64,000 bases of DNA from Candidatus Nitrosoglobus terrae (GTDB taxonomy: Bacteria > Pseudomonadota > Gammaproteobacteria > Nitrosococcales > Nitrosococcaceae): positions 806,001 to 870,000 of the forward strand of contig NZ_AP014836.1 in NCBI RefSeq assembly GCF_002356115.1. The letters run 5' to 3'. A program made the position numbers and the translations under genes. Shown in pieces: positions 14,520 through 47,981 of this stretch. The notes beneath the pieces were generated by a model, which searched no databases, was not told the origin of the DNA, and worked only from the letters and a program-made list of their open reading frames with translations. Position 1 is the stretch's first letter. The number at the start of each line of letters is the position of its first letter.

Positions 14520-14921
14520 ATGAAAAATAAGATTTATAAATCCAAAGAAGAATGGAAAGCTCAACTAACCTCAGCCCAATATCATGTTACCCGAGAGGGA
14601 GGGACTGAGCCTGCTTTTAGTGGTCAATATTACCATTATCAGGAAAAGGGAATATATCATTGTATTTGCTGTCATCAGCCGTTATTTAGTTCGGCGCAAA
14701 AATATGAATCTGGAACCGGTTGGCCAAGTTTTTGGAGTCCAATTAATGAACAAGCAGTGGACACGGGCCCAGATAATAGCCATGCTATGCATCGGATTGA
14801 GGTTTTATGCCCCCGCTGTGATGCTCATTTAGGTCATGTCTTTAATGATGGCCCTGAACCTACGGGGCAGCGTTATTGTATTAATACGTGCGCGTTAAGT
14901 TTTGAAAAAAGCTCCAAATAA
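14520..14921 (+). CDS. msrB: Peptide-methionine (R)-S-oxide reductase MsrB
   Basis: 133 residues from the ATG at 14520; a TTG directly before it is an alternative. AGGAAGGAG lies about 11 bases upstream. It repairs R-methionine sulfoxide in proteins in the cytoplasm. Zinc-site cysteine pairs are CICC and [14 protein letters not shown] and [10 protein letters not shown] are diagnostic, and [11 protein letters not shown] holds the catalytic cysteine (position of RYCIN). The gene overlaps the following apbE by 20 bp, so the two are probably cotranslated, pairing protein repair with flavin transfer. Confidence 0.96.
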
Positions 14922-15960
14922 ATTGAAGTTAATTTTAATTTTAAGCCTCTTATCTTCTTTAGGAGGATTAACCAGTTGCTCGGATCCTGCTGAAAATCGT
15001 TTAACATGGTTGACGGGAACGACGATGGGTACCGGTTATTCAATTAAGATCGTGGGTCTTCCCGCTGGAATCGATTCTAAAGCCCTAGAGCATAGTATTA
15101 TTAAATTGTTGGTAAATATTAACAGTGTGATGTCCACCTATCAGCAAGATTCTGAGCTTTCTCGTTTTAATCGTAATCATAGCACTCAATGGGTGGCTGT
15201 ATCATCCGCGCTGGCCACAGTGGTCACAGAAGCCCAAAAAATTAGCCAGCTTAGTCAGGGGGCTTTTGATGTCACCGTAGGATCTTTAGTCAATCTATGG
15301 GGTTTTGGGCCAGTTCACCTTACGAGTGAAATACCTTCATTGCATCAGATAGAGCAAGCAAAAGAGCAGGTTAACTTTAACCTGCTAAAGATACGAAGTT
15401 TGCCACCTGCTTTAAAAAAAGAACGAGGGGATCTTTATGTAGATCTCTCCGCTATTGCAAAGGGTTATGGGGTCGATCAGGTAGCAACGCTACTGGAATC
15501 CCAGGGGATTAATAATTATTTGGTGGATATTGGGGGAGAGGAGCGACTTAAAGGATATGGTCCTAAAGGAACTGCATGGAGAGTTGCTATTGAGCAACCG
15601 CTAGCGGGAGAGCGTAAGGTGGCCCATATCCTTGATCTGACAGTGGGCGCTGTGGCAACTTCAGGAGATTATCGTAATTATTTTGATCAGAATGGTAAAC
15701 GTTATTCCCATATTATTAATCCGAGTACAGGTTGGCCAATCACTCATAATCTTGCCTCAGTGACAGTATTCAGTGCTACGGCGATGGAGGCAGATGGTTT
15801 AGCCACTGCGATTTTGGTACTGGGTCCAGAACAGGGGTTTCAACTGGCTGAACGAGAGCAGATAGCGGCCTTATTGCTGATAAAAACGCCAGCAGGATTT
15901 AGGGAGGAAGTAACGACTCACTTTATGAGCAATTTTTTACTGGGAAAGTCTGCAGAATAG
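14902..15960 (+). CDS. apbE: FAD:protein FMN transferase, lipoprotein (ApbE)
   Basis: 352 residues. The N-terminal signal ends in lipobox LTSC with lipidated C26, so it is anchored on the periplasmic side. It transfers FMN from FAD onto Ser/Thr of exported flavoproteins such as the RnfG/NqrC type. [46 protein letters not shown] and the metal-site motif ADGLATAIL are all intact. The TTG start lies inside msrB in another frame; no separate ribosome binding site is clear, suggesting translational coupling. A second, divergent ApbE is encoded at 45390. Confidence 0.93.
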
Positions 15961-17542: not shown

Positions 17543-18031
17543 TTAATAATTTCGATACTCACTAAAAGTTTTAATGTTACCTTCCTTATCAAACTGAAGA
17601 ACGTGGAAAGGATCTTTTTTGCCACCCATCTCCATTCCCGGAGTTCCTTTTGGCATTGCTGGAACAGTTAAGCCTACTACCTTAGGCTGCTTAATGAGTA
17701 GTTGTTTGATATCATCTGCGGGAACATGGCCTTCAATAGCATAACCGTTGATAATGGCAGTGTGGCAAGAGGCCAGTTTAGGAGGAATCCCATACTGTTG
17801 TTTAATAGATTGGACATTATTTGTGGGGATATCTTCAATAGTAAAATGATGCTTCTCTAGATGCTTAATCCATTGCTTACAGCAACCACAGCTAGGGTCA
17901 TGATATACAGTGATGTTAGAAGGGCCAAAATAGGAGATTTGAACTTTATCCCATACACTTTCTCTGGCTTGGGAAGAAGCAGCAAATAAAGCCAGCAGAA
18001 AACCTAGGCTAAACTGAAGTATTAATCTCAT
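17543..18031 (-). CDS. DUF411 family exported metal-binding protein
   Basis: 162 residues. A signal peptide (MRLILQFSLGFLLALFAASS, cut near SQA) precedes the DUF411 domain. Diagnostic features are ITVYHDPSCGCCKQW with CGCC at 48-51, LASCHTAIINGYAIEGHVPA and the Met-rich MPKGTPGMEMGG. The family is usually found beside copper-resistance genes and is thought to bind metal, probably copper, in the periplasm; no mechanism is established. The sigma-54 activator gene lies next to it in the same orientation, 134 bp upstream, so it probably has its own promoter. Confidence 0.9.
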   Translation of the reverse strand: MRLILQFSLGFLLALFAASSQARESVWDKVQISYFGPSNITVYHDPSCGCCKQWIKHLEKHHFTIEDIPTNNVQSIKQQYGIPPKLASCHTAIINGYAIEGHVPADDIKQLLIKQPKVVGLTVPAMPKGTPGMEMGGKKDPFHVLQFDKEGNIKTFSEYRNY

Positions 18032-18164: not shown

Positions 18165-19130
18165 TTATGCTTGGATGGCATATTTTTGTAGCCGATAACA
18201 TAAAGTATCTCGGCTAATACCTAGTAGCTTCGCGGCTCTAGAACGATTTCCCTTAGCTCTCGTAATAGCTTGGTGAATGAGTTCTATTTCTACCTGTTCT
18301 AATTCAAGGCCGGCTTCTGGCAAATGAATCAGCGGTTTTGCTTCTGTTGCTGTAGGTGAACCAAGCTCGCCACGAACATCAAATGGCAAGTTTTGAGACT
18401 CAATGGTTTTTCCAGGCAGTAGTACTACCATGCGCTCGCAAAAATTACGAATCTCCCGAACATTACCCAGCCAATGGTAGCTATTTAGGATTTGTAACGC
18501 AGTTCCGCTAAACTGCGGGGGGGTAAGCCCATGTTGCTGTGAAAAATAGGCGCAAAAATGTTTCAAAAATAAATTTATATCTTCTTTTCGCTCTCGTAAT
18601 GGCGGGATTTTTAAGGGTACTACATGAAGGCGATAATAAAGATCCTGTCGAAAACGATTTTCTTGTATACGCTGATTTAGATCGCAATTAGTAGCAGCAA
18701 TAATACGTACATCACAGCGATGAGTAGTGGTATCACCAACAGCTTGGCATTCTCCAGATTCTAAAAAACGAAGCAATTTAGCTTGAATAGCTGGAGAGAG
18801 CTCATTGATTTCATCTAGGAGTACAGTACCGCTCTCAGCGGCTCGAAATCGTCCTAAATGATCATGAGTGGCTCCAGAGAAAGCACCTCGTCGGTGGCCA
18901 AAAAGCTCTGATTCAGCTAAGCCTTCAGGGAGAGCAGCGCAATTAATAGCCATAAATGGCTTATTCACTCGGCGGCCTTCAGTATGAATAGCCTTGGCCA
19001 TTAACTCCTTGCCAGTACCTGTTTCCCCGATAATCAATGTGGTAACCTCTGTTGCTGCTACCATCCGGGCGCTACGTAGGAGGGACTCAAAACTTGGGGC
19101 TTTACCAATAAGGGCATCAAACCTATTCAT
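18165..19130 (-). CDS. Sigma-54-dependent transcriptional activator lacking a sensor domain (Fis-type HTH)
   Basis: 321 residues. The AAA+ domain starts almost at residue 1: Walker A GETGTGKE at 35-42, sigma-54 contact loop GAFSGA at 82-87 (the usual GAFTGA with a Thr to Ser change), Walker B TVLLDEI near 102-108 and the arginine-finger region YYRLHVVPLKIPPLRER. The C-terminal Fis-type helix-turn-helix is clear (AKGNRSRAAKLLGISRDTL). There is no receiver, GAF or PAS domain, as in PspF, so control must come from a partner protein or from its level. Sigma-54 promoters at 37765 and 38789 in this window are possible targets, but no direct link is visible. Confidence 0.93.
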   Translation of the reverse strand: MNRFDALIGKAPSFESLLRSARMVAATEVTTLIIGETGTGKELMAKAIHTEGRRVNKPFMAINCAALPEGLAESELFGHRRGAFSGATHDHLGRFRAAESGTVLLDEINELSPAIQAKLLRFLESGECQAVGDTTTHRCDVRIIAATNCDLNQRIQENRFRQDLYYRLHVVPLKIPPLRERKEDINLFLKHFCAYFSQQHGLTPPQFSGTALQILNSYHWLGNVREIRNFCERMVVLLPGKTIESQNLPFDVRGELGSPTATEAKPLIHLPEAGLELEQVEIELIHQAITRAKGNRSRAAKLLGISRDTLCYRLQKYAIQA

Positions 19131-19210: not shown

Positions 19211-19930
19211 TTAAGAGGAAAAAATAGCAAATAAGTTAATGAGCGCTATAGTTATGATTAATAAACCAGCGATATGGCGTAAGCCCTTTAATTTGGCTAA
19301 ATGAGTCATCCAAATAGTAAAAATGCCTGCGCTCATCACTGCGGGTAAGGTACCGATACCAAAGACAAGCATGGTTAAAGCACTTCGAGTTCCACTACCC
19401 GTGGTAGCTGCAACGGCAACGGCATTATAAACTAAGCCGCAGGGCAACCAACCCCAAATAGTACCAAATATAAATGCGTGCTTTAAGGTACGAACGGGTA
19501 TTAATTGTCGCCCTAGTGGCTCTAGCTTGCGCCACAAAGGTACACCTAACCGATCTACTCTGGCAAAGCGAGGAAACCAATTGGCAATATACAGTCCTGT
19601 TCCCAGCATAATAAAGGATGAAATAGCCTGTAATACGCTATGTCCTGAAATTCCAATTAACACTACTACAGGATGGCTAATGGTGCCTAGGAGTTTTACT
19701 AGCACTCCCATGATTAATCCCATAGTGATATAGCTTACAATGCGGCCAATGTTATAAGCAAAAATAAAAGGTACTAGCCGTTTTTTATGGTTTCGTACTT
19801 CCCGTGGCAGACTTAGGGTTAGTGTGCCGATGATGGCACCACACATAGCAACACAGTGTAAAGCGCTTAATAAACCGAGCAGAAATGCAAAGGTGAAAGA
19901 GGTCGTAAAAAGAGGATCAAAATGAGTCAC
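19211..19930 (-). CDS. TauE/SafE-type (UreH-like) integral membrane protein
   Basis: 239 residues with about six hydrophobic spans. The N-terminal motif LLGLLSALHCVAMCGAIIG (paired His-Cys and Met-Cys) is typical of the sulfite exporter TauE/SafE family branch (UreH_2/DsbD_2-like). Members of this branch often sit beside cbb3 oxidase or metal-handling genes and are suspected of moving copper or thiol compounds; the substrate is unproven. The second half carries the companion motif GWLPCGLVYNAVAVAATTGS. It lies 80 bp upstream of the sigma-54 activator in the same orientation and may be cotranscribed with it. Confidence 0.85.
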   Translation of the reverse strand: MTHFDPLFTTSFTFAFLLGLLSALHCVAMCGAIIGTLTLSLPREVRNHKKRLVPFIFAYNIGRIVSYITMGLIMGVLVKLLGTISHPVVVLIGISGHSVLQAISSFIMLGTGLYIANWFPRFARVDRLGVPLWRKLEPLGRQLIPVRTLKHAFIFGTIWGWLPCGLVYNAVAVAATTGSGTRSALTMLVFGIGTLPAVMSAGIFTIWMTHLAKLKGLRHIAGLLIITIALINLFAIFSS

Positions 19931-35790: not shown

Positions 35791-36255
35791 TTATGACTGA
35801 ATTTGGCTTGAGTGGCTTTCCTGTGGTCGCCGCCGCCGCAGCGCTGCAATGCCGACTGCACCCAAGGCCATCAGGCTGAGGCTGGAAGGTTCAGGCATTG
35901 ATGATAGGGTGCCGGTATCGCCAGCGCGGATACTTTCCCCTGGGACTGACTGATAGGCCCAATCCACCAAGGTTAGGGAATTGATACTCCCTAATGAATC
36001 TCTTGGCGTAAGTTTGAACTGTAGCCAACCAAGATTATCATTTGCCGTGCGAAAACCCACAAAGCTATTTGTAATGCCTAGACCCCAGAGACCATAATGG
36101 CTATTGACTCTTTTAGTGCTGGTAGCTTTTTTAGTATTATAAATAAAAACATTTTGTGAAAACGGCAGCTGGCCTTTCACCCACGTAGCTGACCCGCCAT
36201 ACCTCGTTGCGTTGACGTTGTTGCTTATGATTGTTCCCTTACCAAAGTTAATGTC
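35791..36255 (-). pseudogene. PEP-CTERM protein remnant
   Basis: The C-terminus is a model PEP-CTERM signal: SMPEPSSLSLMALGAVGIAA followed by RRRR. Upstream, coherent protein sequence (TRYGGSATWVKGQLPF, GLWGLGITNSFVGFRT) runs back beyond any methionine start to about 36255, where an in-frame TAG at 36256-36258 stops it; further upstream another in-frame stop appears and no signal peptide is found. The gene has thus lost its 5' end. A GTG at 36180 opens a 129-codon frame, but the product would lack the export signal that PEP-CTERM proteins need. Confidence 0.75.
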
Positions 36256-37424: not shown

Positions 37425-37658
37425 ATTGATTCCTTAAACTAATAAGAATTAGAGGATCCTATCAACATATTGAAAGGATCAGTATATTTTTGCCGAAAAG
37501 CAAAAATTTTCTAAAAATAGCACTTTTTTAGGCTTCAACTCAAACTGAATCAGTTCATCCTGCAAAATAGGAAACTCAAAACCTCAGTGATGCTATTTTT
37601 CTGCTGTAGTATTTAGTGATATGTGTTGATGATAAGAAGAGTGATTTTTAAATAATAT

Positions 37659-37699
37659 GTCATTTAAAGCACTGTTAATCACAAATTACGTCAAATCAT
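37659..37699 (+). promoter_or_regulatory. Degenerate upstream dyad, probable activator site (copy 1)
   Basis: GTCATTTAAAGCA (37659-37671) and TACGTCAAATCAT (37687-37699) occupy the same places, with the same 15-base gap, as the perfect 13-bp inverted repeat upstream of the second paralogue. The outer half of each arm (GTCATTT / AAAT-AT) is best kept. Lying about 66 bp before the sigma-54 promoter, it fits an upstream activating sequence. Confidence 0.5.
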
Positions 37700-37764
37700 G
37701 TAAATATTTTATAATTTTTAATTAAATTATATCTAATTTATTGTTTTTATTATAAAAATAAAAA

Positions 37765-37780
37765 TGGAATGATTATTGCT
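37765..37780 (+). promoter_or_regulatory. Sigma-54 promoter (copy 1)
   Basis: TGGAATGATTATTGCT matches the sigma-54 consensus TGGCACG-N4-TTGCW: GG and GC are separated by exactly ten bases and the TTGCT -12 box is perfect. It lies 63 bp before the TTG start of the first paralogue. The identical 16-mer recurs before the second paralogue. Confidence 0.8.
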
Positions 37781-37843
37781 GGGTTATAAGCTGTAATTTA
37801 GTGAAATTTTACTCTTAATATATAAAGATAAGGAGAAGTTGTT

Positions 37844-38596
37844 TTGATAAAAAAAATAATTACGCTAGCGTTTATGCTCTCTGTTTTATATAGTGCAAGC
37901 CCGTTAGTGTTGGCCCATACCACGATTAAAGATCGGGCACAGGAAGGGGTGGATTTGTATACGGCTGATGTCATCGCCCATGGCTGTTCGGGGGGTACTA
38001 AAGAAATGCTTAATGTTATCGGCCAATCGGTAGTATTTCCTAACGGCCCTAATGACATTGTCACGCGCTCTGATACAGGGGGAACGCTTAGCTTAGGGAG
38101 TGTGATAGTTGGCGGTAAGTATTCACATGGTGTGATTAACCCTGTACCTATTCAAAACAAAAATGTTTTTGACACGATGGTACCGATAGCAGATCAAACT
38201 CAAGTAGTAAGGGCACTTCATTATACTGATGGCGATCTGCCAGAAACCCCAGTGCTGGTAAATGGAATTATCCCTTTCAAGTTTAGTGGGGTGACTTTTG
38301 TGCCAAGCTCTTGTGCCACTCAGCTTAATGTACAGATTGCAATAGCAGACTGGTGCACACAAGGGACAGGATCACGGCGAGCCAATGTGTGGATAGGGAA
38401 AGCAACCCCGATGTTTCCTGCAAGCGGTCCAGCAGGAGAAGCCATAGCCGCAAATTTTTGGCCGGTTTTGATTGTGAATCGGAATTTAACCACTAACCCT
38501 CTGCCCCCAAATTGTGGCAAGGGTTATCAAGTCACAGTAGAGCCTTCGGCTGATGCGATAGATGAATATCTGCCGCTTCCAGGCTTTAATCCTTAA
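37844..38596 (+). CDS. Exported protein with predicted N-terminal histidine, paralogue 1 (unknown family)
   Basis: 250 residues from a TTG start, with AAGGAG eight bases upstream. A signal peptide ends SPLVLA, so the mature protein should begin with His25 (HTTIKD). It then has YTADVIAHGC near residues 40-48 and further cysteines in SSCATQLN, DWCTQ and NCGKG, allowing disulfides or metal ligands. The opening (H...Y...V.HGC...FPNGP) loosely recalls YcnI/DUF1775 copper proteins, but I cannot assign the family. It is preceded by its own sigma-54 promoter and is a close paralogue of the next gene, nearly identical over its last 80 residues. Periplasmic metal, likely copper, binding is an inference. 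Confidence 0.75.
   Translation: MIKKIITLAFMLSVLYSASPLVLAHTTIKDRAQEGVDLYTADVIAHGCSGGTKEMLNVIGQSVVFPNGPNDIVTRSDTGGTLSLGSVIVGGKYSHGVINPVPIQNKNVFDTMVPIADQTQVVRALHYTDGDLPETPVLVNGIIPFKFSGVTFVPSSCATQLNVQIAIADWCTQGTGSRRANVWIGKATPMFPASGPAGEAIAANFWPVLIVNRNLTTNPLPPNCGKGYQVTVEPSADAIDEYLPLPGFNP
38368..38506 (+). repeat. 139-bp identical tract shared by two paralogues
   Basis: Bases 38368-38506 are identical to 39434-39572 (offset 1066), while the 5' halves of the two genes are only moderately similar and contain indels. Identity continues beyond a single C/T difference into the CAAATTGTGGCAAGGGTT segment. This points to gene conversion or selection for an unchanged C-terminal part. Confidence 0.9.
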
Positions 38597-38682
38597 TAGG
38601 TAATATGCTGCCTAAGGCTCATTTAATGAGCTTTGGGCTGTATCTAAATAAGGGATAGTAAAAGTAGTCTCTAATTTAATAC

Positions 38683-38723
38683 GTCATTTGGCGTATTTTT
38701 AATAATAAATTACGCCAAATGAC
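38683..38723 (+). promoter_or_regulatory. Perfect 13-bp inverted repeat, probable activator site (copy 2)
   Basis: GTCATTTGGCGTA (38683-38695) and its exact reverse complement TACGCCAAATGAC (38711-38723) are separated by 15 bases. They lie 65 bp upstream of a sigma-54 promoter, the usual place for an enhancer-binding protein site. Distance between arm centres is 28 bp, nearly three helical turns, so two dimers or one tetramer could bind one face. Confidence 0.7.
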
Positions 38724-38788
38724 ATAAATATTTTATGATTTTTAATCTAATTACATTTAATCTATTGTTTTTATTATTAAAATAAAGA

Positions 38789-38804
38789 TGGAATGATTAT
38801 TGCT
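38789..38804 (+). promoter_or_regulatory. Sigma-54 promoter (copy 2)
   Basis: TGGAATGATTATTGCT again, identical to the element at 37765-37780, with the ten-base GG-GC spacing. It lies 55 bp before the GTG start of the second paralogue. Conservation of exactly this 16-mer in otherwise drifting AT-rich spacer DNA supports function. Confidence 0.82.
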
Positions 38805-38858
38805 TAATAATCTTAGTAAGATTTTACTCTTATGGACAGCAGATAGGAGGGAAGAGCT

Positions 38859-39662
38859 GTGATGAAAATAATTACGCTAGCGTTTATGCTCACTGCTTTA
38901 TATAGTGCAAGCCCGTTAGTATTAGCCCATACCACGATTAAAGATCAGGCGCAGGAGGGGGTGGATTTGTATACGGCTGATGTGATTGCCCATGGCTGTG
39001 TGAGTGGGGTTAAACCTTTCCTTCCTGTGATTGCTGAGTCACTGGCTTTCCCTAATGGTCCTAATGATATCTATACCCGTGCTGATACGGGTGCGGCAAT
39101 TAGCTTAGGGGATGTGCTTGTGGGTGCTGACATTTCCCATGGCGTAATCGATCCAACAGCGCTTCAATATCGGGATGTTTTTGATAAAACTGCGCTAATG
39201 ACAGATAATTCAATGAGTAATGAATTAGCAGATGATGCGCCTATCAGTGGAGTGATTCGGGGGATTCATTACACTAACAGCGACAATGACCGTCAGGGCA
39301 CTAACGAGCAGCTACAGGTAGATCTACAGGGCGTGATACCCTTTAAGTTTCCTGGCGTGGAATTTGTGTCAAGCTCTTGTGCCACTCAGCTTAATGTACA
39401 GATTGCAATAGCGGATTGGTGTACACAAGAGGGAGGATCACGGCGAGCCAATGTGTGGATAGGGAAAGCAACCCCGATGTTTCCTGCAAGCGGTCCAGCA
39501 GGAGAAGCCATAGCCGCAAATTTTTGGCCGGTTTTGATTGTGAATCGGAATTTAACCACTAACCCTCTGCCCTCAAATTGTGGCAAGGGTTTTACAGCTA
39601 TAGCAGAACCTTCAGCTGATACGATTGATCAATTTTTGCCTATTCCAGGTTTTCAGCCTTAA
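38859..39662 (+). CDS. Exported protein with predicted N-terminal histidine, paralogue 2 (unknown family)
   Basis: 267 residues; GTG start with AGGAGG eight bases upstream, the ATG three bases later being an alternative. The signal peptide again ends SPLVLA and the mature protein starts HTTIKD. YTADVIAHGC, SSCATQLN, DWCTQ and NCGKG cysteines are shared with the preceding gene. A 17-residue insertion around residues 110-130 (LMTDNSMSNELADD) distinguishes it. It has its own sigma-54 promoter, so the two copies need not be cotranscribed. The family is unknown to me; N-terminal His with nearby His and Cys makes copper binding plausible. Confidence 0.75.
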   Translation: MMKIITLAFMLTALYSASPLVLAHTTIKDQAQEGVDLYTADVIAHGCVSGVKPFLPVIAESLAFPNGPNDIYTRADTGAAISLGDVLVGADISHGVIDPTALQYRDVFDKTALMTDNSMSNELADDAPISGVIRGIHYTNSDNDRQGTNEQLQVDLQGVIPFKFPGVEFVSSSCATQLNVQIAIADWCTQEGGSRRANVWIGKATPMFPASGPAGEAIAANFWPVLIVNRNLTTNPLPSNCGKGFTAIAEPSADTIDQFLPIPGFQP

Positions 39663-39750
39663 TGCGTTATTTTAAAAAATGAAGATTAGGCTAGGCTAGC
39701 AACGATAAGATTTGTAGGAACTTTGATTTTTCTAATCATTGGAGATTGAT

Positions 39751-40617
39751 ATGTCTTCAGGTCGATTTTCGTTACTGACTGGAATATTTTTGATCTATTC
39801 GATGGTCTGTTTTGGCGAGATTTCTAATAACTCGGAAAAACAAGGAAACGCAGCGCCCGCAAATAATGGTAATTTGCACCTAGAAGTCAAGGAAGCGCCG
39901 ATAGATCAGGTCTTTAAAATTATTGAAAGTCAAGCAGGAATCCAATTACATGTTTCATCGGTGCCGCAAAAGCTAGTCACCGCAACCTGCACCGGTACCG
40001 CCTTAGAGGTGCTTAAGTGTGCGTTGGGCAACGATGTTAATCTAATCTATCAGTATTCGGATAATGCCACGGATAACTCGCTGCCACAACTGGCAACCGT
40101 GTGGGTACTAGGTGCAAGCTCATCGAATCCACAGCAACTTTCGAAGGATAGCTCTCACGCTTCATCTGTTTGTAGTCCAATGGATCAGAATGAACAGCGA
40201 AAAACACCTCCACTGGGTAAATTAGCCCTATCGGCCAAGGAAATTGAAGGTCTTTTTAAGCTTTCCCAATCGGATAAGCCAGCAGATCGGAAAGAAGCTT
40301 TATCTCGCCTCGCCCTAGTAGATCAAGCGGATGATGGTGATATCAGAGAAATTATGAAAGGAGCTTTACAGGATCAAAGCGTCAGGGTAAGGGAGCAGGC
40401 AATTTCTGGGTTAGCACGGCGCAATAGTCCGGATATTGAATCTGTATTAAATACTGCTTTGCAGGATAGGGATTCGAATGTACGCTTGATGGCGGTGAGT
40501 AATGCCGGGGAAAATGTTTATGTGTTGCAATCAGCCCTTAACGATAGGAATTCAGATGTACGTGCTTTAGCAAGGATGAAGCTTAATCAAATTTCAGCAA
40601 TGAGTGCAGATCAGTGA
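39751..40617 (+). CDS. Exported STN-like and HEAT-repeat protein
   Basis: 288 residues from the ATG at 39751, which has GGAG six bases upstream; an upstream in-frame TTG is less likely. A signal peptide ends near MVCFGE. Residues about 40-115 look like a secretin/TonB short N-terminal (STN) domain: NLHLEVKEAPIDQVFKIIES, then ALEVLKCALGNDVNLIYQY. The C-terminal half (about 175-285) has HEAT repeats: DNREIMKGALQDQ-like units repeated as VRVREQAISGLARR, VRLMAVSNAGEN and VRALARMKLNQI. Both domains are protein-binding, so a periplasmic adaptor role is inferred. It lies between the two tandem pairs of His1 proteins. Confidence 0.75.
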   Translation: MSSGRFSLLTGIFLIYSMVCFGEISNNSEKQGNAAPANNGNLHLEVKEAPIDQVFKIIESQAGIQLHVSSVPQKLVTATCTGTALEVLKCALGNDVNLIYQYSDNATDNSLPQLATVWVLGASSSNPQQLSKDSSHASSVCSPMDQNEQRKTPPLGKLALSAKEIEGLFKLSQSDKPADRKEALSRLALVDQADDGDIREIMKGALQDQSVRVREQAISGLARRNSPDIESVLNTALQDRDSNVRLMAVSNAGENVYVLQSALNDRNSDVRALARMKLNQISAMSADQ

Positions 40618-40661
40618 CGGTATAAAATTTCTTAACAAAGCCTTCAAAAGAGGAGGTTATC

Positions 40662-41120
40662 ATGAATGAGATAGCACTAAAGGGTAAGCAAAGAGTTGTA
40701 TTAATAGTCATAGCATTGGGATGGAGCATTAACGTATTCGCCCATAATCAAATTGGTACTTTAGGTGATCCGGCCAGTGCCACTGACTTTTACATGGTCC
40801 AGTGTTCTACTGATTCAGGGGGTGTAACGGGTCGATTGTATACTCAGATACTGGATGGGACTACAACTGCAGGAGGCGGTAAGATAAGTGTGGTTTCGGA
40901 ATTCAATGGTGACAATATTATTGATGCCACGACCGCTTCTGCTCCGGTAAGAGATGGCCAAAATGGCCCCGCCTCTATCTTGCCCGGTGCAGATGGGATT
41001 TTTCTGATGTTTGTCCATAAGCTTAAGGAGGGGGTGAAAGATTATAATGTAACTTATCATTGCCAGTCCAGCGAGGGCGTCCATACGGGTACCTCAATAC
41101 AAACCATACAAGATCAATAG
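40662..41120 (+). CDS. Small exported protein with predicted N-terminal histidine, second family, paralogue 1
   Basis: 152 residues. The signal peptide ends NVFA, so the mature protein should begin with His28 (HNQIGTLG). Two cysteines (VQCSTD and TYHCQS) are conserved with the next gene and could form a disulfide. FVHKLKEG and THTGTS-like ends are shared. The glycine run TTAGGGKISVVS is conserved but is not a known flavinylation motif. AGGAGG lies close before the ATG. Family unknown to me; beta-sandwich structure is likely from strand-turn pattern. Metal binding by the amino-terminal histidine is a hypothesis. Confidence 0.75.
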   Translation: MNEIALKGKQRVVLIVIALGWSINVFAHNQIGTLGDPASATDFYMVQCSTDSGGVTGRLYTQILDGTTTAGGGKISVVSEFNGDNIIDATTASAPVRDGQNGPASILPGADGIFLMFVHKLKEGVKDYNVTYHCQSSEGVHTGTSIQTIQDQ

Positions 41121-41160
41121 CGATCACCTATTTTAAGTTAGCTAATTAATATTTTTTATA

Positions 41161-41607
41161 ATGAGAAATAAGCAAATAATTGTATTCATAATAGCGGCAC
41201 TGAAATTCAATGCTAATGCAGTAGCTCATGATCAAGTGGGATCTTTAGGCGAGGATGCTAGTGCAACTGATTATTATTTAGTCATGTGCTCTACCAGCCC
41301 TGGCGGGGAAACTGGCCTGCTGAGAACGCAGATACTCGATGCGACCACGACTGCGGGGGGCGGTAAAATAAGCGTAGTTTCCCAGTTCCAAAATGAAACT
41401 ATGATTAAGGCAGCTACCGCTTCTGATCCAAATAGATTAGATGATCAACCGGGGCCAGCAGCTATTTTGCCTGGCGCTAATGGGGCTTTTAACGTGTTTG
41501 TGCATAAGCTGAAAGAAGGGCCTAAAAACTATCAGCTTACCTATCATTGTATGACGAGCGAAGGCAGCCATACGGGCACCTCATTGACTACCATACAGGA
41601 TCAGTAA
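41161..41607 (+). CDS. Small exported protein with predicted N-terminal histidine, second family, paralogue 2
   Basis: 148 residues, clearly a tandem duplicate of the preceding gene. The signal peptide ends NAVA and the mature start is His23 (HDQVGSLG). The shared blocks are ASATDYYLVMCSTSPGG, TTTAGGGKISVVSQF, FVHKLKEGPKNY, TYHCM and SHTGTSLTTIQDQ. No ribosome binding site is obvious before the ATG, and the gap to the upstream gene is only 40 bp, so cotranscription is likely. Confidence 0.75.
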   Translation: MRNKQIIVFIIAALKFNANAVAHDQVGSLGEDASATDYYLVMCSTSPGGETGLLRTQILDATTTAGGGKISVVSQFQNETMIKAATASDPNRLDDQPGPAAILPGANGAFNVFVHKLKEGPKNYQLTYHCMTSEGSHTGTSLTTIQDQ

Positions 41608-41677
41608 GTATTCAGTATAGGGATGATAAAACTAAATTTTGGCGTAATCGTATCTCGTTATTATTTAGGGAAATATC

Positions 41678-42187
41678 ATGAATAAATTAAGATTAATTGT
41701 TATTAGCGGCTTGTTAATGATTTCGCAAGGAGTTTTTGCGGCTGGGGTTAATCAGGAAGATCTTGATTGTGTATTAACTAAATTTGATACCTCGGATCAG
41801 ATAATACTCAGCCAATTACGAGGGAAAGTAGTTTATGTAGATTTTTGGGCCTCTTGGTGTTCTCCTTGCGCTAAATCATTTCCGTTTTTAAATGAGCTAC
41901 AGCACGAATTTGGCGATCGTGGATTACAGATCGTTGGGGTTAATTTGGATGAAAAACGGGGAGATGCACAAGAATTTTTAGGTAAAATCCCGGCTCATTT
42001 TCAGATAGCAGCCGATCCGGGTCAGAAATGCGCTAAATCGTTTGGTCTTAAAGGCATGCCTTCTTGTTTTTTGGTGGATAAAAACGGGGCGATTCATCAT
42101 GCTCATTTAGGATTTAGATCTTCAGATGCTAAGGAGTTGCGAGCAAAAATAGAACAGATGTTAGAAGAGGAAGCTTCTGAGAGCTAG
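41678..42187 (+). CDS. TlpA-like exported thioredoxin
   Basis: 169 residues. The signal peptide ends SQGVFA. The thioredoxin fold has active site WASWCSPCAKSF with C61 and C64, and the cis-proline loop GMPSCFLVD. An extra cysteine pair (KCAKSF and PSCF) is notable. It should reduce or exchange disulfides in the periplasm, for example to prepare cysteines or metal sites of its neighbours. Its place between the His1 proteins and the DUF4266/DUF3570 genes suggests it serves that system. TlpA-type proteins are often found with DUF3570, DUF4266 and ApbE genes. Confidence 0.9.
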   Translation: MNKLRLIVISGLLMISQGVFAAGVNQEDLDCVLTKFDTSDQIILSQLRGKVVYVDFWASWCSPCAKSFPFLNELQHEFGDRGLQIVGVNLDEKRGDAQEFLGKIPAHFQIAADPGQKCAKSFGLKGMPSCFLVDKNGAIHHAHLGFRSSDAKELRAKIEQMLEEEASES

Positions 42188-42241
42188 GTTGATGGATTCT
42201 AATCTGTATAGATAGACATATTAATCAGTTCTGTATTAATA

Positions 42242-42300
42242 AAGTACAAGGATGTACTTCATTCGAAAAGCTGAGGGATTGAAAAACGCAGTAGTGCGTT
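42242..42300 (+). terminator. Two adjacent hairpins after the thioredoxin gene
   Basis: AAGTACA/TGTACTT (42242-42259) and AACGCA/TGCGTT (42285-42300, loop GTAG) lie in the 281-bp gap between the thioredoxin and DUF4266 genes. They may end the upstream transcript or form a processing site. The gap is otherwise AT-rich and without ORFs. Confidence 0.4.
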
Positions 42301-42468
42301 GAGCACCAGCAGCTAAATCTAGGATCGTTCCATAGAAAGATTTGCCTTTGCTGTAGGAGATTTGCTATTGCCCTAAATATTGATAGCAATCATTGCCCTA
42401 TAGCGCTCAATATAGTTGAAAATATTTTGTTATGTATAGCTAGCTCGGTATGAGCAGAAATTAAAGTT

Positions 42469-42717
42469 ATGGATATGGTAAAACACGGCCGAGTGATACA
42501 AATAGCACGAGTAAAAATAGCATTATTATTTGCTTTACTGGTATGGGTATCGGGTTGTACGGTGGCTCCATGGGAGCGAGGTAATCTTGCTAAGCCCGAA
42601 ATGGTATCAAATCCCTATCCCACCCAGAATGTTCTGCGCGGCCATGTAACTAGTGCCCGTGAGGCGGCTGGAGCGCCTAGCGCGAGTACTATGGGAGGAG
42701 CCTGTGGCTGTTATTAA
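42469..42717 (+). CDS. DUF4266 lipoprotein
   Basis: 82 residues. The signal peptide ends with lipobox VSGC (C30). The mature part holds the family signature PWERGNLAKPEM and the terminal GGACGCY, both highly conserved in DUF4266. The C-x-C tail could bind metal or form a disulfide. DUF4266 genes almost always precede DUF3570 genes. Here the conserved Gly codons near the 3' end also supply the ribosome binding site for the next gene, whose start lies 14 bp inside this one. Confidence 0.9.
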   Translation: MDMVKHGRVIQIARVKIALLFALLVWVSGCTVAPWERGNLAKPEMVSNPYPTQNVLRGHVTSAREAAGAPSASTMGGACGCY

Positions 42718-45352
42718 ACCGATTTCTGTAGTCAAACGGTTTAATCGCCAGGGGAGTTCCTCTTTATTAGCGTTAACCTCGGCGGCGCTGGCTTTACCTG
42801 GGTTAATCATACCCTCAGCGCAGGCTGAGCCTGATATTGATGAAGGACCATTTGATCTTGCTCAGGATAATAGTATCTTCTCCAGCGTTGAGGGGGGGCG
42901 ATTTGGCTTTCAATATGGCCGTTATCAGGAAGGCGGAGGTAATCTGAATGCGTTTAGACCGCAAGCAAATACTGTTCGAGCAGATACCTTGCACGCTTTT
43001 GGGGAAATCGACCTTACGGATCGGCTCACATTCCGCGGTAATTTTATCCAAGATACTTGGTCAGGAGCGACTTCCATTTCAACTGCACCCGCAGCGTTGA
43101 CCCGATTTAATCCAAATGCCGAAACGGGTGCCTCAGCTTTTACCAATCTTCGGGGCGGGGTGGTTAATTTTAATACAGAAACTGGCCAAGGCCTAGCACT
43201 TATTCCTGGCACTGATAAGACGATATTGACTAACCAAGTCGTACATATGATGGCGGTAGCTTCACCTGAAACCCGTAAACAGGGGGATTTTGGGCTTACC
43301 CATGAATGGGATGATTCTACTTTAGAGTTTGGAGGCGGTATTTCCCAAGAAAGAGACTTTGATTCCATGTATTTTCGCCTGCGTGGAACTGCGGATTTTA
43401 ATCAGAAGCTCACTACCCTAACTTGGGGGGTAAACTATGCGAACAATGCTATCACCGTGCAGCGCTATCCATTTAGGTTGAACTCAGCAGCAGTTGATTT
43501 AGTAACGTTATCTAATCCAGATTTTCCAGATTGGTCGCCCACAGTCAATACTACCCGAAATGATTATTCTATCAATCTTGGTGTTAATCAGGTTTTAGAT
43601 AAAGATTCGATATTCACGGCACAATTTATTTATACGAATAATTCTGGCTATCAGTCAGATCCTTATAAGGAAGCGGTATTTGTAGTTCCGTTGGATACGC
43701 CCGGGCAAGCATGGTCTTATGATCGTTATGATAAACGGCCTAATGAACGTAATCAGTTTACTTGGGCGTTGGGCTATTCTCGTTATTTTGACAAGGTCAA
43801 TGGTGCCTTAAAGCTTAACTATAATTTCTTTCATGATACTTGGGAGATTGATGCTCATACTTTTGGTGCTTCTTGGGCACAATCATTAGGCCATGGCTGG
43901 ACCTTAACCCCGAATATTAGGTATTACAGCCAAAGTGCTGCCAGTTTTTATAAACCCTTTTTTATTGGCAGCCAAACTCCTATCTCGCTAGCACAGGCGC
44001 TTAATAATCAAAGTACGCTACCAACGCCTCAGTTTTTTAGTAGCGATTATCGATTATCAGCTTTTGGTACTCTAAGCGGTGGATTAACCGTCAATAAGGA
44101 ATTTAGTAGAGGAATAGATATCGGCGCAAATTTTGAATATTTTGATCATGCCAATGCCTTAACTCTAGGCGGCGGGGGCAGTGGTAGCTTTGGCGACTTC
44201 CATTATTATGTCGCCAGTGCTTTTATGAATGTAAATTTATCATCAGCCTTTAATAGCATCAGCTCTGGCGGCAAACACGCTCATCAAGATCATAATAATC
44301 ATGGTGAGCATACACTGGCTCCGGCGGGTGTCCTATTTAGCCATATGATGGATACTCCAGGCCAGTTTATGGTAGGTCTACGGTATTTTTATAACCATCA
44401 AGGGGGCGATACCATACACGGTACTCAGCCGGTTGATAATACTGCTATTATTAATAATGCGTGTAATGGCAGCCAAGGATTTACCTGCCAGATGAAGGCG
44501 ACCTACATGAATATGGCTATGGAAATGCTTGATATCATGTATGCACCCACTTCTTGGTTAAATCTGATGGTGATGCCCATGTTCATGGATATGCATATGG
44601 ATATGCCAGATATGCCGGGCGCACCTCAAGCGGTTCAAGGGCAAACTATGATTATGTCAAATGGCCCAAAGAAAATGAGCACAGGAGGCGTAGCTGATAC
44701 CCGATTAGTGGCTTTAGTTAAATTATTTGACTCTCCGTTTGATATTACTTCTTCTGCCCCTAGACATCATTTCCATATCGGTTTAGGCGTGAGCGCTCCA
44801 ACAGGTGATTCTGGGCTGAGATCACCTACCCAAGAAACAGATCCTAATAGCCCATTTTTTGGTAAGCCCTTATTTAAAGAATATGATATGCAGTTGGGTA
44901 GCGGCACTTGGGATTTTATTCCAAGCCTGACTTATACTGGAGTATTAGATCGTTGGTCTTGGGGGGGGCAGCTTAATGGGACTGTACGGACGCAAAGAAA
45001 TTCATCAGGCTATGCCTTGGGTGACATATTTCAGGCGACAGCTTGGGGGGGATATAACGTGTTACATTGGCTCTCATTTACCCTGCGTGGGCTTTATACC
45101 ACTGAAGGAAAAATTAGAGGCCAATTTAAGCAAACCCTGCCAGCGATAGGCACGATGCCAAGTGATTGGCCTCAGAATTATGGTAGCCGTACTTGGGACG
45201 TGGGTTTTGGTGTTAATGCTGTTGTCCCAAGCGGTAAGCTTCAGGGTAATCGGTTTGGTGTTGAGTGGTTACAGCCTACGTATAATGATGTCAACGGTTA
45301 TCAGCTAGAGCAAAAAGGGGAGCTTATCGCGTGGTGGAATTATACGTTTTAA
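42704..45352 (+). CDS. Long DUF3570-type outer-membrane beta-barrel protein, probable fusion, Met/His-rich
   Basis: 882 residues from the GTG at 42704, which has GGAGG five bases upstream. The signal peptide ends PSAQA. The first half resembles DUF3570 (RADTLHAFGEIDLTDRLTF, NFIQDTWSGAT). DUF3570 proteins are usually about half this size. The second half (from about 530) looks like a separate barrel of the phenol/transporter type (LMVGLRYF-like start, FHIGLGVSAPTGDS, WGGQLNGTVRT), ending in a terminal Phe typical of outer-membrane proteins. Between them are a His cluster (HAHQDHNNHGEH, about 525-537) and a Met-rich run with 13 methionines around 600-640 (PMFMDMHMDMPDMPG). These suggest copper binding. 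Confidence 0.85.
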   Translation: MAVIKPISVVKRFNRQGSSSLLALTSAALALPGLIIPSAQAEPDIDEGPFDLAQDNSIFSSVEGGRFGFQYGRYQEGGGNLNAFRPQANTVRADTLHAFGEIDLTDRLTFRGNFIQDTWSGATSISTAPAALTRFNPNAETGASAFTNLRGGVVNFNTETGQGLALIPGTDKTILTNQVVHMMAVASPETRKQGDFGLTHEWDDSTLEFGGGISQERDFDSMYFRLRGTADFNQKLTTLTWGVNYANNAITVQRYPFRLNSAAVDLVTLSNPDFPDWSPTVNTTRNDYSINLGVNQVLDKDSIFTAQFIYTNNSGYQSDPYKEAVFVVPLDTPGQAWSYDRYDKRPNERNQFTWALGYSRYFDKVNGALKLNYNFFHDTWEIDAHTFGASWAQSLGHGWTLTPNIRYYSQSAASFYKPFFIGSQTPISLAQALNNQSTLPTPQFFSSDYRLSAFGTLSGGLTVNKEFSRGIDIGANFEYFDHANALTLGGGGSGSFGDFHYYVASAFMNVNLSSAFNSISSGGKHAHQDHNNHGEHTLAPAGVLFSHMMDTPGQFMVGLRYFYNHQGGDTIHGTQPVDNTAIINNACNGSQGFTCQMKATYMNMAMEMLDIMYAPTSWLNLMVMPMFMDMHMDMPDMPGAPQAVQGQTMIMSNGPKKMSTGGVADTRLVALVKLFDSPFDITSSAPRHHFHIGLGVSAPTGDSGLRSPTQETDPNSPFFGKPLFKEYDMQLGSGTWDFIPSLTYTGVLDRWSWGGQLNGTVRTQRNSSGYALGDIFQATAWGGYNVLHWLSFTLRGLYTTEGKIRGQFKQTLPAIGTMPSDWPQNYGSRTWDVGFGVNAVVPSGKLQGNRFGVEWLQPTYNDVNGYQLEQKGELIAWWNYTF

Positions 45353-45389
45353 ATTTAATCGGTATGGATTACTGATTTGTTGGCATACT

Positions 45390-46346
45390 ATGAAACTTTA
45401 CCATAGGGCTTTTAAAGCGATGGGTACTCCATGCGATATTCAGGTTTATGCTAAAACTCAAGATAAAGCTGAGCAAGTTATAGGGCTGATTATTGCCGAT
45501 CTGCAGCGTTTAGAAGCCCGTTATTCTCGCTACCGTTCTGATAGTTTTCTTTCTGCTATTAATCGGGTAGCAATGACAGGCGGTCATATAACAGTAGATA
45601 AGGAAACTACAGAATTATTAAATTATGCGGCCACCTGCTATGCCCAAAGCGATGGGCTGTTTGATATTACTTCGGGTATTTTGCGACAAGCATGGGATTT
45701 TAAGTCTGGTAAATTACCAAATGAGGAACAAGTTCAAGCGTTACTGGGAAAAATAGGCTGGGAAAAACTGCACTGGAAACCTCCAGTACTTGAGTTTCCT
45801 TTCCCAGGGATAGAAATTGATTTTGGCGGTATTGTGAAGGAATATGCGGCTGATAGAGCCGTTTCGCTGGGTTTACAGGCAGGAATCTGCCATGGTTTAG
45901 TCAATTTAGGCGGAGATATTAAGATTGTTGGTCCGCGCCCAGATGGAGATCTTTGGCGAATTGGTATTCGCCATCCTGATCATAAAGGGGTTGCGATAGA
46001 GATGCTGCAATTATATGAAGGAGCCATTGCCAGTAGCGGTGATTATGAACGCTGCATTGTGTTAGAAGATATACGCTATGGCCATGTACTTAATCCAAAA
46101 ACGGGTTGGCCAGTACGGCATCTAGCATCAGTAACGGTGGTGAGTGATTGGTGCGTGGTGGCTGGAAGCGCTTCTACCATTGCTATGCTTAAAGAGACAG
46201 AGGGTCAGGTTTGGTTACAGAATTTAGATTTACCTCATTTTTGGGTCGATATCCAAGGAAAAACAGGAGGTTCACTTGGAAGGCTATCTGTTGAGTCCTT
46301 ATCTACAACCGAAACTCAGTATTCAGTAGCTGCGGCCATACTGTAA
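45390..46346 (+). CDS. ApbE-like FAD:protein FMN transferase, divergent, no signal peptide
   Basis: 318 residues. The fold is that of ApbE: FKAMGTPCDIQVYA, YSRYRSDSFLSAINR, IDFGGIVKEYAADRA, LVNLGGDIKIVG and SSGDYERCI. The metal-site motif that reads A-D-x-L-A-T in classical ApbE is AGSASTIAML here, so the usual Asp is missing. No signal peptide or lipobox is visible, unlike the ApbE at 14902. ApbE relatives of this type accompany DUF4266/DUF3570 clusters. Either it flavinylates a partner before export or it has another role. It follows the barrel gene by 37 bp. Confidence 0.88.
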   Translation: MKLYHRAFKAMGTPCDIQVYAKTQDKAEQVIGLIIADLQRLEARYSRYRSDSFLSAINRVAMTGGHITVDKETTELLNYAATCYAQSDGLFDITSGILRQAWDFKSGKLPNEEQVQALLGKIGWEKLHWKPPVLEFPFPGIEIDFGGIVKEYAADRAVSLGLQAGICHGLVNLGGDIKIVGPRPDGDLWRIGIRHPDHKGVAIEMLQLYEGAIASSGDYERCIVLEDIRYGHVLNPKTGWPVRHLASVTVVSDWCVVAGSASTIAMLKETEGQVWLQNLDLPHFWVDIQGKTGGSLGRLSVESLSTTETQYSVAAAIL

Positions 46347-46418
46347 CAAACACCTCCCCATAGGATTAAGGAATATTATCTATCCCAGCCCAAATCAACT
46401 CTGTCAGGATAAGAAACG

Positions 46419-47981
46419 ATGCATCATCTTTCGGTAAATAGCTTAGAGCGGGCAGGATTATATTTTACTGTTTTTTTGACCGGGGCTGCAGTAATGATAG
46501 TGGAGCTTTTAGGAACCCGTATTATTGCCCCTTTTTATGGTGCCAGCCTTTACGTCTGGTCGTCTTTGATCTCAGTAACGATGATTGCTTTGGCCTTAGG
46601 CTATTTTATAGGCGGGTACTGGGCTGATCGAGTTAAGCAAACTAGGTTAGCATTTATTATTGCCAGTGCTGCTTTATGTATCCTGATAATCCCTTGGTTA
46701 ACCCGTTTTGTTTTGTTAGCTACCGATCCGCTGGGTTTGCGTGTAGGGGCTTTTATGAGTGCCTTGGTGCTATTTTCACCAAGCTTGACTCTGTTAGGGA
46801 TGGTGGGGCCATTTGCCATTAAATTATCAACCTTAACGCTAGAGGGGGTAGGTACTAGCGTGGGTTCGATCTACGCTGCCAGTACCCTTGGTGGCGTAGC
46901 TGGAACATTATTCTTGGGGTTCTATTTGTTTCCTAGGATAGGGTCTTATGAAATTCTTATGGATCTGAGTATGGCCTTATTACTATTAGCGATAGCAGTC
47001 GCTTTCTACGAAAGAAAACGCCTAAGATTCGCCCTTATTTTCTTGCCAATTATATTGGGGATTCTAGGGATAAATTTATCACTACAGACGATTAGATCGG
47101 ATAGACATGTGTCTGAAATTTACTCCGGCGGTGAGTTTTTCAAAATTTTATCTGAGCGTGAAAGCCTATATGGTTGGGTGCGCGTTATGGATCAACCCGC
47201 GCGGGATCTTCGTTTACTGACTGTGGATGCTTCAGTGATTGGGGCAGCTAGCATTAGTCATGGTGAAAATCGACTTGCTTACCAGGACATCGTGCAGCTA
47301 ATCCCAGCTTTAGTACCTCATATGAAGCGCGCCTTGCTACTGGGTCAAGGGGCCGGTCATATGGCAATCACTTTAAAAGATCGCTATCAGATAAATACCG
47401 ATACCTTAGAAATCAATCCAGCGGTGGCTGAAGTGGCCACTCGCTACTTTGGCTTTATGCCTACGGGGAAGCGTATTGTTGGCGATGCCCGCTATGAGAT
47501 TCGGCGTTTGAAAGGATCTTATGATCTGATTATCCATGATTGCTTTACGGGAGGTTCAGAACCCGCTTATTTATTGACCGTTGAGGCTCTAGAAGAACTA
47601 CGATCACTGCTCTCTGATCAAGGTATTCTACTATTGAACTTTGTGGCTTTCTCAGATGAGGGCAAGAATACCGCGTTGGCCTCTGTAGCTAAAACCATTG
47701 CACAGGTGTTTCCACAGCAGCTGGTTTTTATTTCTGAACCGGGTAAGGACTTTAATGATTTCGTTTTCCTTGCAGCGAATCATTCCATCAATCTTAATAC
47801 AAGCGCACTTAGACTTAAGCAAGTAGCTTGGTTGGAACGAAGACAGCTAGCCGTGGATAAAGGGCAAGGCATGCTTTTAACCGACGATTTTTACCCACTG
47901 GAGCAGCTACAGCTTCGTAAAGCTCAATACTATAGACACACGTTAATAAGCTGGTTAGGTGCCAATATTTTAGTGCGATAA
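46419..47981 (+). CDS. Membrane-anchored spermidine synthase-like protein
   Basis: 520 residues. The N-terminal 200 residues hold about six transmembrane spans with an MFS-like look (TVFLTGAAVMIVELLGTRII, GYFIGGYWADRVKQ). The C-terminal part (about 230-480) is a spermidine synthase/methyltransferase-like Rossmann domain: LLLGQGAGHMAITLK, TLEINPAVAEVA and YDLIIHDCFTGGSEP. Such fused proteins are widespread, but their substrate is generally unknown, and aminopropyl transfer should not be assumed. It stands between the putative metal system and the polysaccharide operon; which of the two it belongs to is unclear. Confidence 0.85.
   Translation: MHHLSVNSLERAGLYFTVFLTGAAVMIVELLGTRIIAPFYGASLYVWSSLISVTMIALALGYFIGGYWADRVKQTRLAFIIASAALCILIIPWLTRFVLLATDPLGLRVGAFMSALVLFSPSLTLLGMVGPFAIKLSTLTLEGVGTSVGSIYAASTLGGVAGTLFLGFYLFPRIGSYEILMDLSMALLLLAIAVAFYERKRLRFALIFLPIILGILGINLSLQTIRSDRHVSEIYSGGEFFKILSERESLYGWVRVMDQPARDLRLLTVDASVIGAASISHGENRLAYQDIVQLIPALVPHMKRALLLGQGAGHMAITLKDRYQINTDTLEINPAVAEVATRYFGFMPTGKRIVGDARYEIRRLKGSYDLIIHDCFTGGSEPAYLLTVEALEELRSLLSDQGILLLNFVAFSDEGKNTALASVAKTIAQVFPQQLVFISEPGKDFNDFVFLAANHSINLNTSALRLKQVAWLERRQLAVDKGQGMLLTDDFYPLEQLQLRKAQYYRHTLISWLGANILVR

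Follow-up and report, generated by a model that had tools for sequence, protein, structure and literature searches.

Two tandem genes for secreted proteins (family 1) in the window, the whole 64,000-nucleotide stretch of DNA that was analysed, each lie behind the same sigma-54-type promoter sequence and a pair of palindromic sites at a fixed distance upstream of it. The promoter, the paired sites and their geometry are conserved in relatives, the pair occurs once per genome, and it recurs with sigma-54 promoters in another order. We propose, at a probability of about 0.68 on the sequence evidence, that these elements place an operon for the acquisition of a metal, probably copper, under sigma-54 and enhancer control; the sigma-54 and enhancer core, taken alone, is very likely right.

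In the mechanism that we propose, TGGAATGATTATTGCT would serve sigma-54 RNA polymerase as the promoter of each tandem gene, and there the enzyme would wait in a closed complex. Two dimers of a sigma-54 activator (bEBP) would occupy the two 16-bp near-palindromes, whose centres lie 31 bp apart, a distance of about three helical turns that puts them on one face of the DNA. The bound activator would contact the polymerase by looping an AT-rich stretch of ~62 bp. The output would be an operon-like array that begins with the genes for the secreted proteins. In their mature form these proteins start with His; they are probably metal-binding, most likely copper-binding, and would take up metal or hand it on in an organism dependent on a copper monooxygenase. 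Our leading candidate for the activator is the bEBP encoded at 18165-19130, and because this protein has no N-terminal sensor domain its activity is probably controlled in trans, the adjoining DsbD_2 membrane protein being one possible controller.

It is poorly understood how ammonia oxidizers and methane oxidizers sense copper and obtain it for their monooxygenases. The arrangement described here can be searched for in genomes as a cis-code, with two 16-bp sites spaced 31 bp and a sigma-54 box ~61, 72 or 83 bp away. This code points to candidate genes for uptake and to a single candidate regulator, and it opens the question to experiment in methanotrophs that can be cultured. Our literature search found no description of the paired site, the activator or the protein family. 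The proposed regulon is new; sigma-54 control of exported proteins, which the preliminary description had called unusual, is itself already known and has been published for single-gene operons encoding exported PEP-CTERM proteins (PMC1569441).

Promoters and paired sites in the window

The elements upstream of the two paralogues are as follows.

37656-37671, +: copy 1 distal activator site (predicted), TATGTCATTTAAAGCA, degraded; PWM score 12.9, in 31-bp register with the proximal site
37687-37702, +: copy 1 proximal activator site (predicted), TACGTCAAATCATGTA
37765-37780, +: copy 1 sigma-54 promoter (predicted), TGGAATGATTATTGCT, -24/-12, GC at 37778-37779; conserved in relatives
38680-38695, +: copy 2 distal activator site (predicted), TACGTCATTTGGCGTA
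38711-38726, +: copy 2 proximal activator site (predicted), TACGCCAAATGACATA
38789-38804, +: copy 2 sigma-54 promoter (predicted), TGGAATGATTATTGCT, GC at 38802-38803

We recognized sigma-54 promoters by a -24 GG and a -12 GC ten bases apart, with the consensus TGGCAC-N5-TTGCW. Both copies of the 16-mer are exactly where the preliminary description had placed them, with exact GG-N10-GC spacing and an exact TTGCT; they agree with 10 of the 12 informative positions of TGGCACG-N4-TTGCW, and their -24 box, GGAAT, departs from the consensus GGCAC. At up to two mismatches they are the sole matches in the window, where 0.16 would be expected by chance and two were reached in 1 of 100 shuffles. The genome (2.02 Mb, 99.98% complete) encodes one RpoN (5.8e-67) and six sigma-54 activators (2.3e-63 or better). 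We infer from sequence that transcription starts at these promoters. Sigma-70-like matches near them are weak and rarer than in shuffles (3 versus 5.8), and a search against Rfam returned no match.

The inverted repeat upstream of copy 2, GTCATTTGGCGTA / TACGCCAAATGAC, is perfect over 13 bp and has a gap of 15 bases, and copy 1 carries a degraded form that keeps the register, both as described before. The exact 13-mer is present in the genome only as this one pair. Of the earlier reading as a dyad, the constant 15-base gap stands and the single inverted repeat does not: the 13-mers are parts of two separate 16-bp near-palindromes, TACGNCA-NN-TGNCGTA, with centres 31 bp apart and the proximal site 70–71 bp from the -24 GG. 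Indeed, in one relative (G003) the two sites are direct repeats, and in the others they are inverted, always with 15 bases between them.

The preliminary description had also argued that the spacer had drifted between the two copies, so that the promoter and half-sites looked selected. This argument fails, since identity between the copies is highest in the spacer from site to promoter (54 of 62 positions, 87%) and lower in the sites (69% and 75%). The comparison of the paralogues thus gives no sign of selection, and the elements are repeated within the window simply because both copies inherited them. Scanning the looping spacer for IHF sites gave one-mismatch matches in the two window copies and none in the relatives, and therefore we make no claim for IHF. 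Single-site matches elsewhere in the genomes were set aside: their number was close to that in the control, and most of the ones inspected lay in coding regions.

Conservation in relatives and recurrence in a second order

We compared five relatives from the same family, four genomes of one sister genus (3.4–4.1 Mb) and one of 1.8 Mb (G002). Urease genes and gene content, among other features, suggest that the source is a gammaproteobacterial ammonia oxidizer of the Ca. Nitrosoglobus type and that the sister genus is Nitrosococcus. Each of the four sister-genus genomes has one orthologue in the same gene order behind the promoter TGGAATRGTTNTTGCN, which settles in its favour the conservation of the 16-mer, named at the outset as a point on which the promoter assignment could fall; the site centres are again 31 bp apart and the proximal centre is 70–71 bp from the GG. 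Across genera the spacer is only 53–63% identical while these distances stay fixed, which argues for selection on the sites and promoter. The genome scan for dyads proposed earlier found the paired pattern (at most three mismatches) exactly once in each of five genomes, the window's own included, always at the family-1 gene, with no match to a reversed-pattern control. G002 has no match at this threshold; it has a degraded pair one base off the expected place, which ranks first of 15,955 positions in 16 kb, and it also keeps the GG-N10-GC box. Two sister-genus genomes (G001 and G005) carry a second pair, 30 bp apart and 71 bp from a TAGCATAAATTTTGCT box with AG in place of GG, upstream of a TonB receptor gene.

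The pattern also recurs in a wider survey of 201 genomes in the order of G305, which we took as Methylococcales. Matches were found in 48 of these genomes, in clearly more places than the reversed control, and many pairs are near-perfect, such as one with TGTGTCATATGACACA twice. Among the strong pairs (23 distinct pairs at two mismatches or fewer), 11 have a sigma-54 box scoring at least 10 within 215 bp, compared with 3.05% of random positions (p ~2e-11), and 7 are without any sigma-54 site scoring at least 9. The offsets to the GG group around 61, 72 and 83, as helical phasing would give, a pattern that was noticed after the fact. Thus the assignment of sigma-54 promoters with upstream activator sites has held up, with rpoN and six activators in the genome, an architecture kept in relatives and its recurrence in another order.

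The secreted proteins, their array and the metal

The two paralogues stand at the head of a gene array on one strand (37844-47981), with mostly short gaps and with terminator-like matches that all fall inside genes.

37844-38596, +: paralogue 1, secreted, mature N-terminal His (VLA|HTTIKD), 250 aa
38859-39662, +: paralogue 2, secreted, mature N-terminal His, 267 aa, 71% identical to paralogue 1
39739-40617, +: HEAT-repeat protein (Pfam HEAT_2, 4.8e-14); synteny in relatives and at L175
40662-41120, +: second secreted family, mature N-terminal His (VFA|HNQIG); fused to family 1 in G305
41161-41607, +: second secreted family, paralogue (AVA|HDQVG)
41678-42187, +: TlpA/ResA-like thiol-disulfide oxidoreductase
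42469-42717, +: DUF4266 small lipoprotein-like protein (Pfam, 8e-15)
42653-45352, +: DUF3570 protein (Pfam, 3.7e-105); true start probably further downstream
45390-46346, +: ApbE-like protein by sequence resemblance, within the array in relatives too
46419-47981, +: spermidine-synthase-like membrane protein by sequence resemblance, last gene of the conserved array by synteny

Earlier taken for secreted single proteins, the two genes instead head an array of ~10 kb without a clear intergenic terminator. The ends of the signal peptides (A|H) in both secreted families were judged by eye. The window encodes two ApbE-like proteins, at 14902-15960 and 45390-46346, the second of them within the conserved DUF4266-DUF3570 array. 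In G305 (L106 / L136:5699-6802, -) a single 368-aa protein joins family 2 with family 1, and this fusion suggests that the two families act together. At L175, in the second order, a perfect pair and TGGCACGGTGTCTGCT lie upstream of a family-1 homologue followed by HEAT, family-2, DUF3570 and synthase-like genes, the order of the operon in the window; this independent case ties the site and the operon together.

Across 12 family-1 members the mature His1, His22 and Cys24 (HxC), three more Cys and a Trp (W200) are invariant. Neither window paralogue matched a Pfam or NCBIfam family, searches of PDB profiles gave nothing useful, a tblastn search of plasmids returned no match, and an AlphaFold model built from two sequences reached a pLDDT of 27.5, too low to be used. 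The copper-binding YcnI/DUF1775 proteins are likewise secreted, with a conserved mature N-terminal His and a conserved Trp, and are linked to copper genes (PMC8424229). Family 1 resembles them in its secretion, in an invariant mature His1 and Trp (W200), the latter only perhaps the counterpart of the YcnI Trp, and in its linkage to probable copper genes, whereas it has additional invariant His and Cys residues, no Pfam assignment and only marginal similarity: the window proteins do not match DUF1775/YcnI (PF07987), one of the 12 relatives reaches only E=0.02, and hhalign gave probabilities of 46% and 7%. We consider this likeness suggestive only.

A second comparison is with Methylococcus capsulatus, like the window's source a gammaproteobacterium with a copper monooxygenase. 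According to the parts of one report considered here, its copper-responding clusters have a putative sigma-54 promoter, ATGGTTCGCATTTTGCT, and surface or secreted proteins and a TonB system are raised under copper limitation (PMC4831470). The gene families differ from those in the window, and those parts of the report contain no description of a paired 16-bp site or of an activator.

Copper is probably the metal, in our reading of the sequences. It is possible, if rather doubtful, that the metal is another one (iron, lanthanide or nickel) or that the proteins have a structural role, such as in a surface layer or in association with exopolysaccharide. Genes behind the Methylococcales-like pairs encode mostly TonB receptors and secreted proteins, several of them His-first after the signal peptide, and three of the receptors, L188 (above the TIGR01783 cut-off), L185 and L186, score best as siderophore or heme receptors, which would fit a metal other than copper. 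So would the pairs that lie near ECF-sigma-like or AraC/PchR-like genes by sequence resemblance (L177, L179, L173, L158 and L163), where there is also a hint of a regulatory cascade. Against this, the G001/G005 receptor is best matched among NCBIfam models by TonB-copper (2.3e-54, below its cut-off), the candidate bEBP adjoins a DUF411/CopG-like gene, and one pair is followed by L193, whose product matches di-heme enzymes of the MbnH/MauG type. The N-terminal His and the invariant His, Cys and Trp residues of family 1 also speak for copper. For the proposed operon, expression that is switched on when the metal is scarce has about an even chance. More tentatively, one undescribed sigma-54 regulon, marked by the rigid pair of 16-bp sites, may be common to gammaproteobacterial ammonia oxidizers and methanotrophs. 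In it a sensor-less activator, with copper status set by a membrane protein, would control TonB receptors and a new family of secreted His-first proteins for copper, both of which would supply AMO/pMMO.

The candidate activator

The bEBP and its two neighbours are encoded as follows.

17543-18031, -: DUF411 (CopG-like, CGCC motif) protein after the bEBP, flanking it in the family (Pfam, 2.1e-25; for CopG, PMC7558416)
18165-19130, -: candidate cognate bEBP, with sigma-54 AAA+ domain (PF00158, 4.4e-65), Fis-type HTH (HTH_8, 3.6e-15), a GAFSGA loop and no N-terminal sensor domain; assigned by linkage
19211-19930, -: DsbD_2-type membrane protein adjoining the bEBP (Pfam, 3.6e-45), adjacency kept in relatives

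Orthologues of this bEBP, 75–80% identical, are present in all five relatives. In four genomes, including the window's own, it lies 18–22 kb from the target gene, and in G001 and G005 it is far from the target gene and ~3.5–4 kb from the second site pair. We prefer it as the activator because it is linked to site pairs in all six genomes, and this linkage makes the assignment reasonably probable. PspF is a sensor-less bEBP that consists of a sigma-54 AAA+ domain and a Fis-type HTH without an N-terminal sensor domain. The window protein resembles PspF-type bEBPs in this sensor-less architecture, but it has GAFSGA in place of GAFTGA, adjoins the DsbD_2 and DUF411 genes and scores below the PspF model cut-off, and no psp genes were seen beside it. 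The GAFSGA variant has been reported to be compatible with activation (PMC6615313).

Alternatively, the cis elements are as described, but PrsR or a FleQ-like bEBP is the activator and would respond to a signal that has nothing to do with metals; we judge this unlikely. The PrsR of this genome (L042) scores above the TIGR02915 cut-off, and a PEP-CTERM gene elsewhere in the genome (G000:C1:941143, L033:1501), whose product scores above the cut-off of the PEPxxWA model, lies behind TGGCATGATTATTGCT, one mismatch from the 16-mer and 46 bp upstream of the gene; it is probably a PrsR target. The published PEP-CTERM/PrsK/PrsR/sigma-54 system (Haft et al. 2006, PMC1569441) is further like the present one in its exported proteins, its large upstream regions and an activator motif before the -24/-12 box. 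PrsR orthologues occur in all four site-bearing sister-genus genomes and the FleQ-like bEBP (L041) was seen in three; no orthologue of either was found in G002, whose sites are degraded and which yet keeps the bEBP of 18165-19130, so that the phyletic pattern fails to single out the latter. FleQ/FlrA-type sites also hold GTCA...TGAC half-sites (PMC4641369). However, no site pair is linked to either PrsR or the FleQ-like bEBP, in contrast to the window bEBP with its linkage in all six genomes. Pfam and NCBIfam searches found no PEP-CTERM motif in either window protein, the paired 16-bp palindromes at 31 bp set the present promoters apart from the PrsR system, and the likely activator lacks a receiver domain; the TonB receptors and His-first secreted proteins that predominate behind the second-order pairs also argue against both candidates.

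A role for the repeated promoter and dyad as a mere by-product of tandem duplication, with transcription by sigma-70, is very improbable and largely refuted: the high spacer identity between the copies and the weak sigma-70-like matches would suit it, but single-copy orthologues in another genus keep the sites and exact spacings across a diverged spacer, sigma-70-like matches are fewer than in shuffles, and in a second order, too, the paired sites go together with sigma-54 promoters.

Several further observations bear on neighbouring genes and genomes. A PEP-CTERM protein (above the TIGR02595 and PF07589 cut-offs) is encoded at 35791-36180 (-), a few kb from the promoters. G193 has two orthologues of the candidate bEBP and no match to the paired pattern; its second copy (L127, G193:C1:2126672) is divergent from two tandem secreted-protein genes, with a TGGCACGCCTGATGCT box just upstream of the activator gene. 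A CorA/MopE identity for these secreted genes was dropped, as they had no PDB match. Finally, the paired site and clear sigma-54 boxes are absent upstream of the family-1 genes in G379 and G230 (L108, L113 and L107), where the upstream DNA carries another palindrome, TGCGACA-N3-TGTCGCA, and the family-1 operon of these genomes may have been rewired to another regulator.
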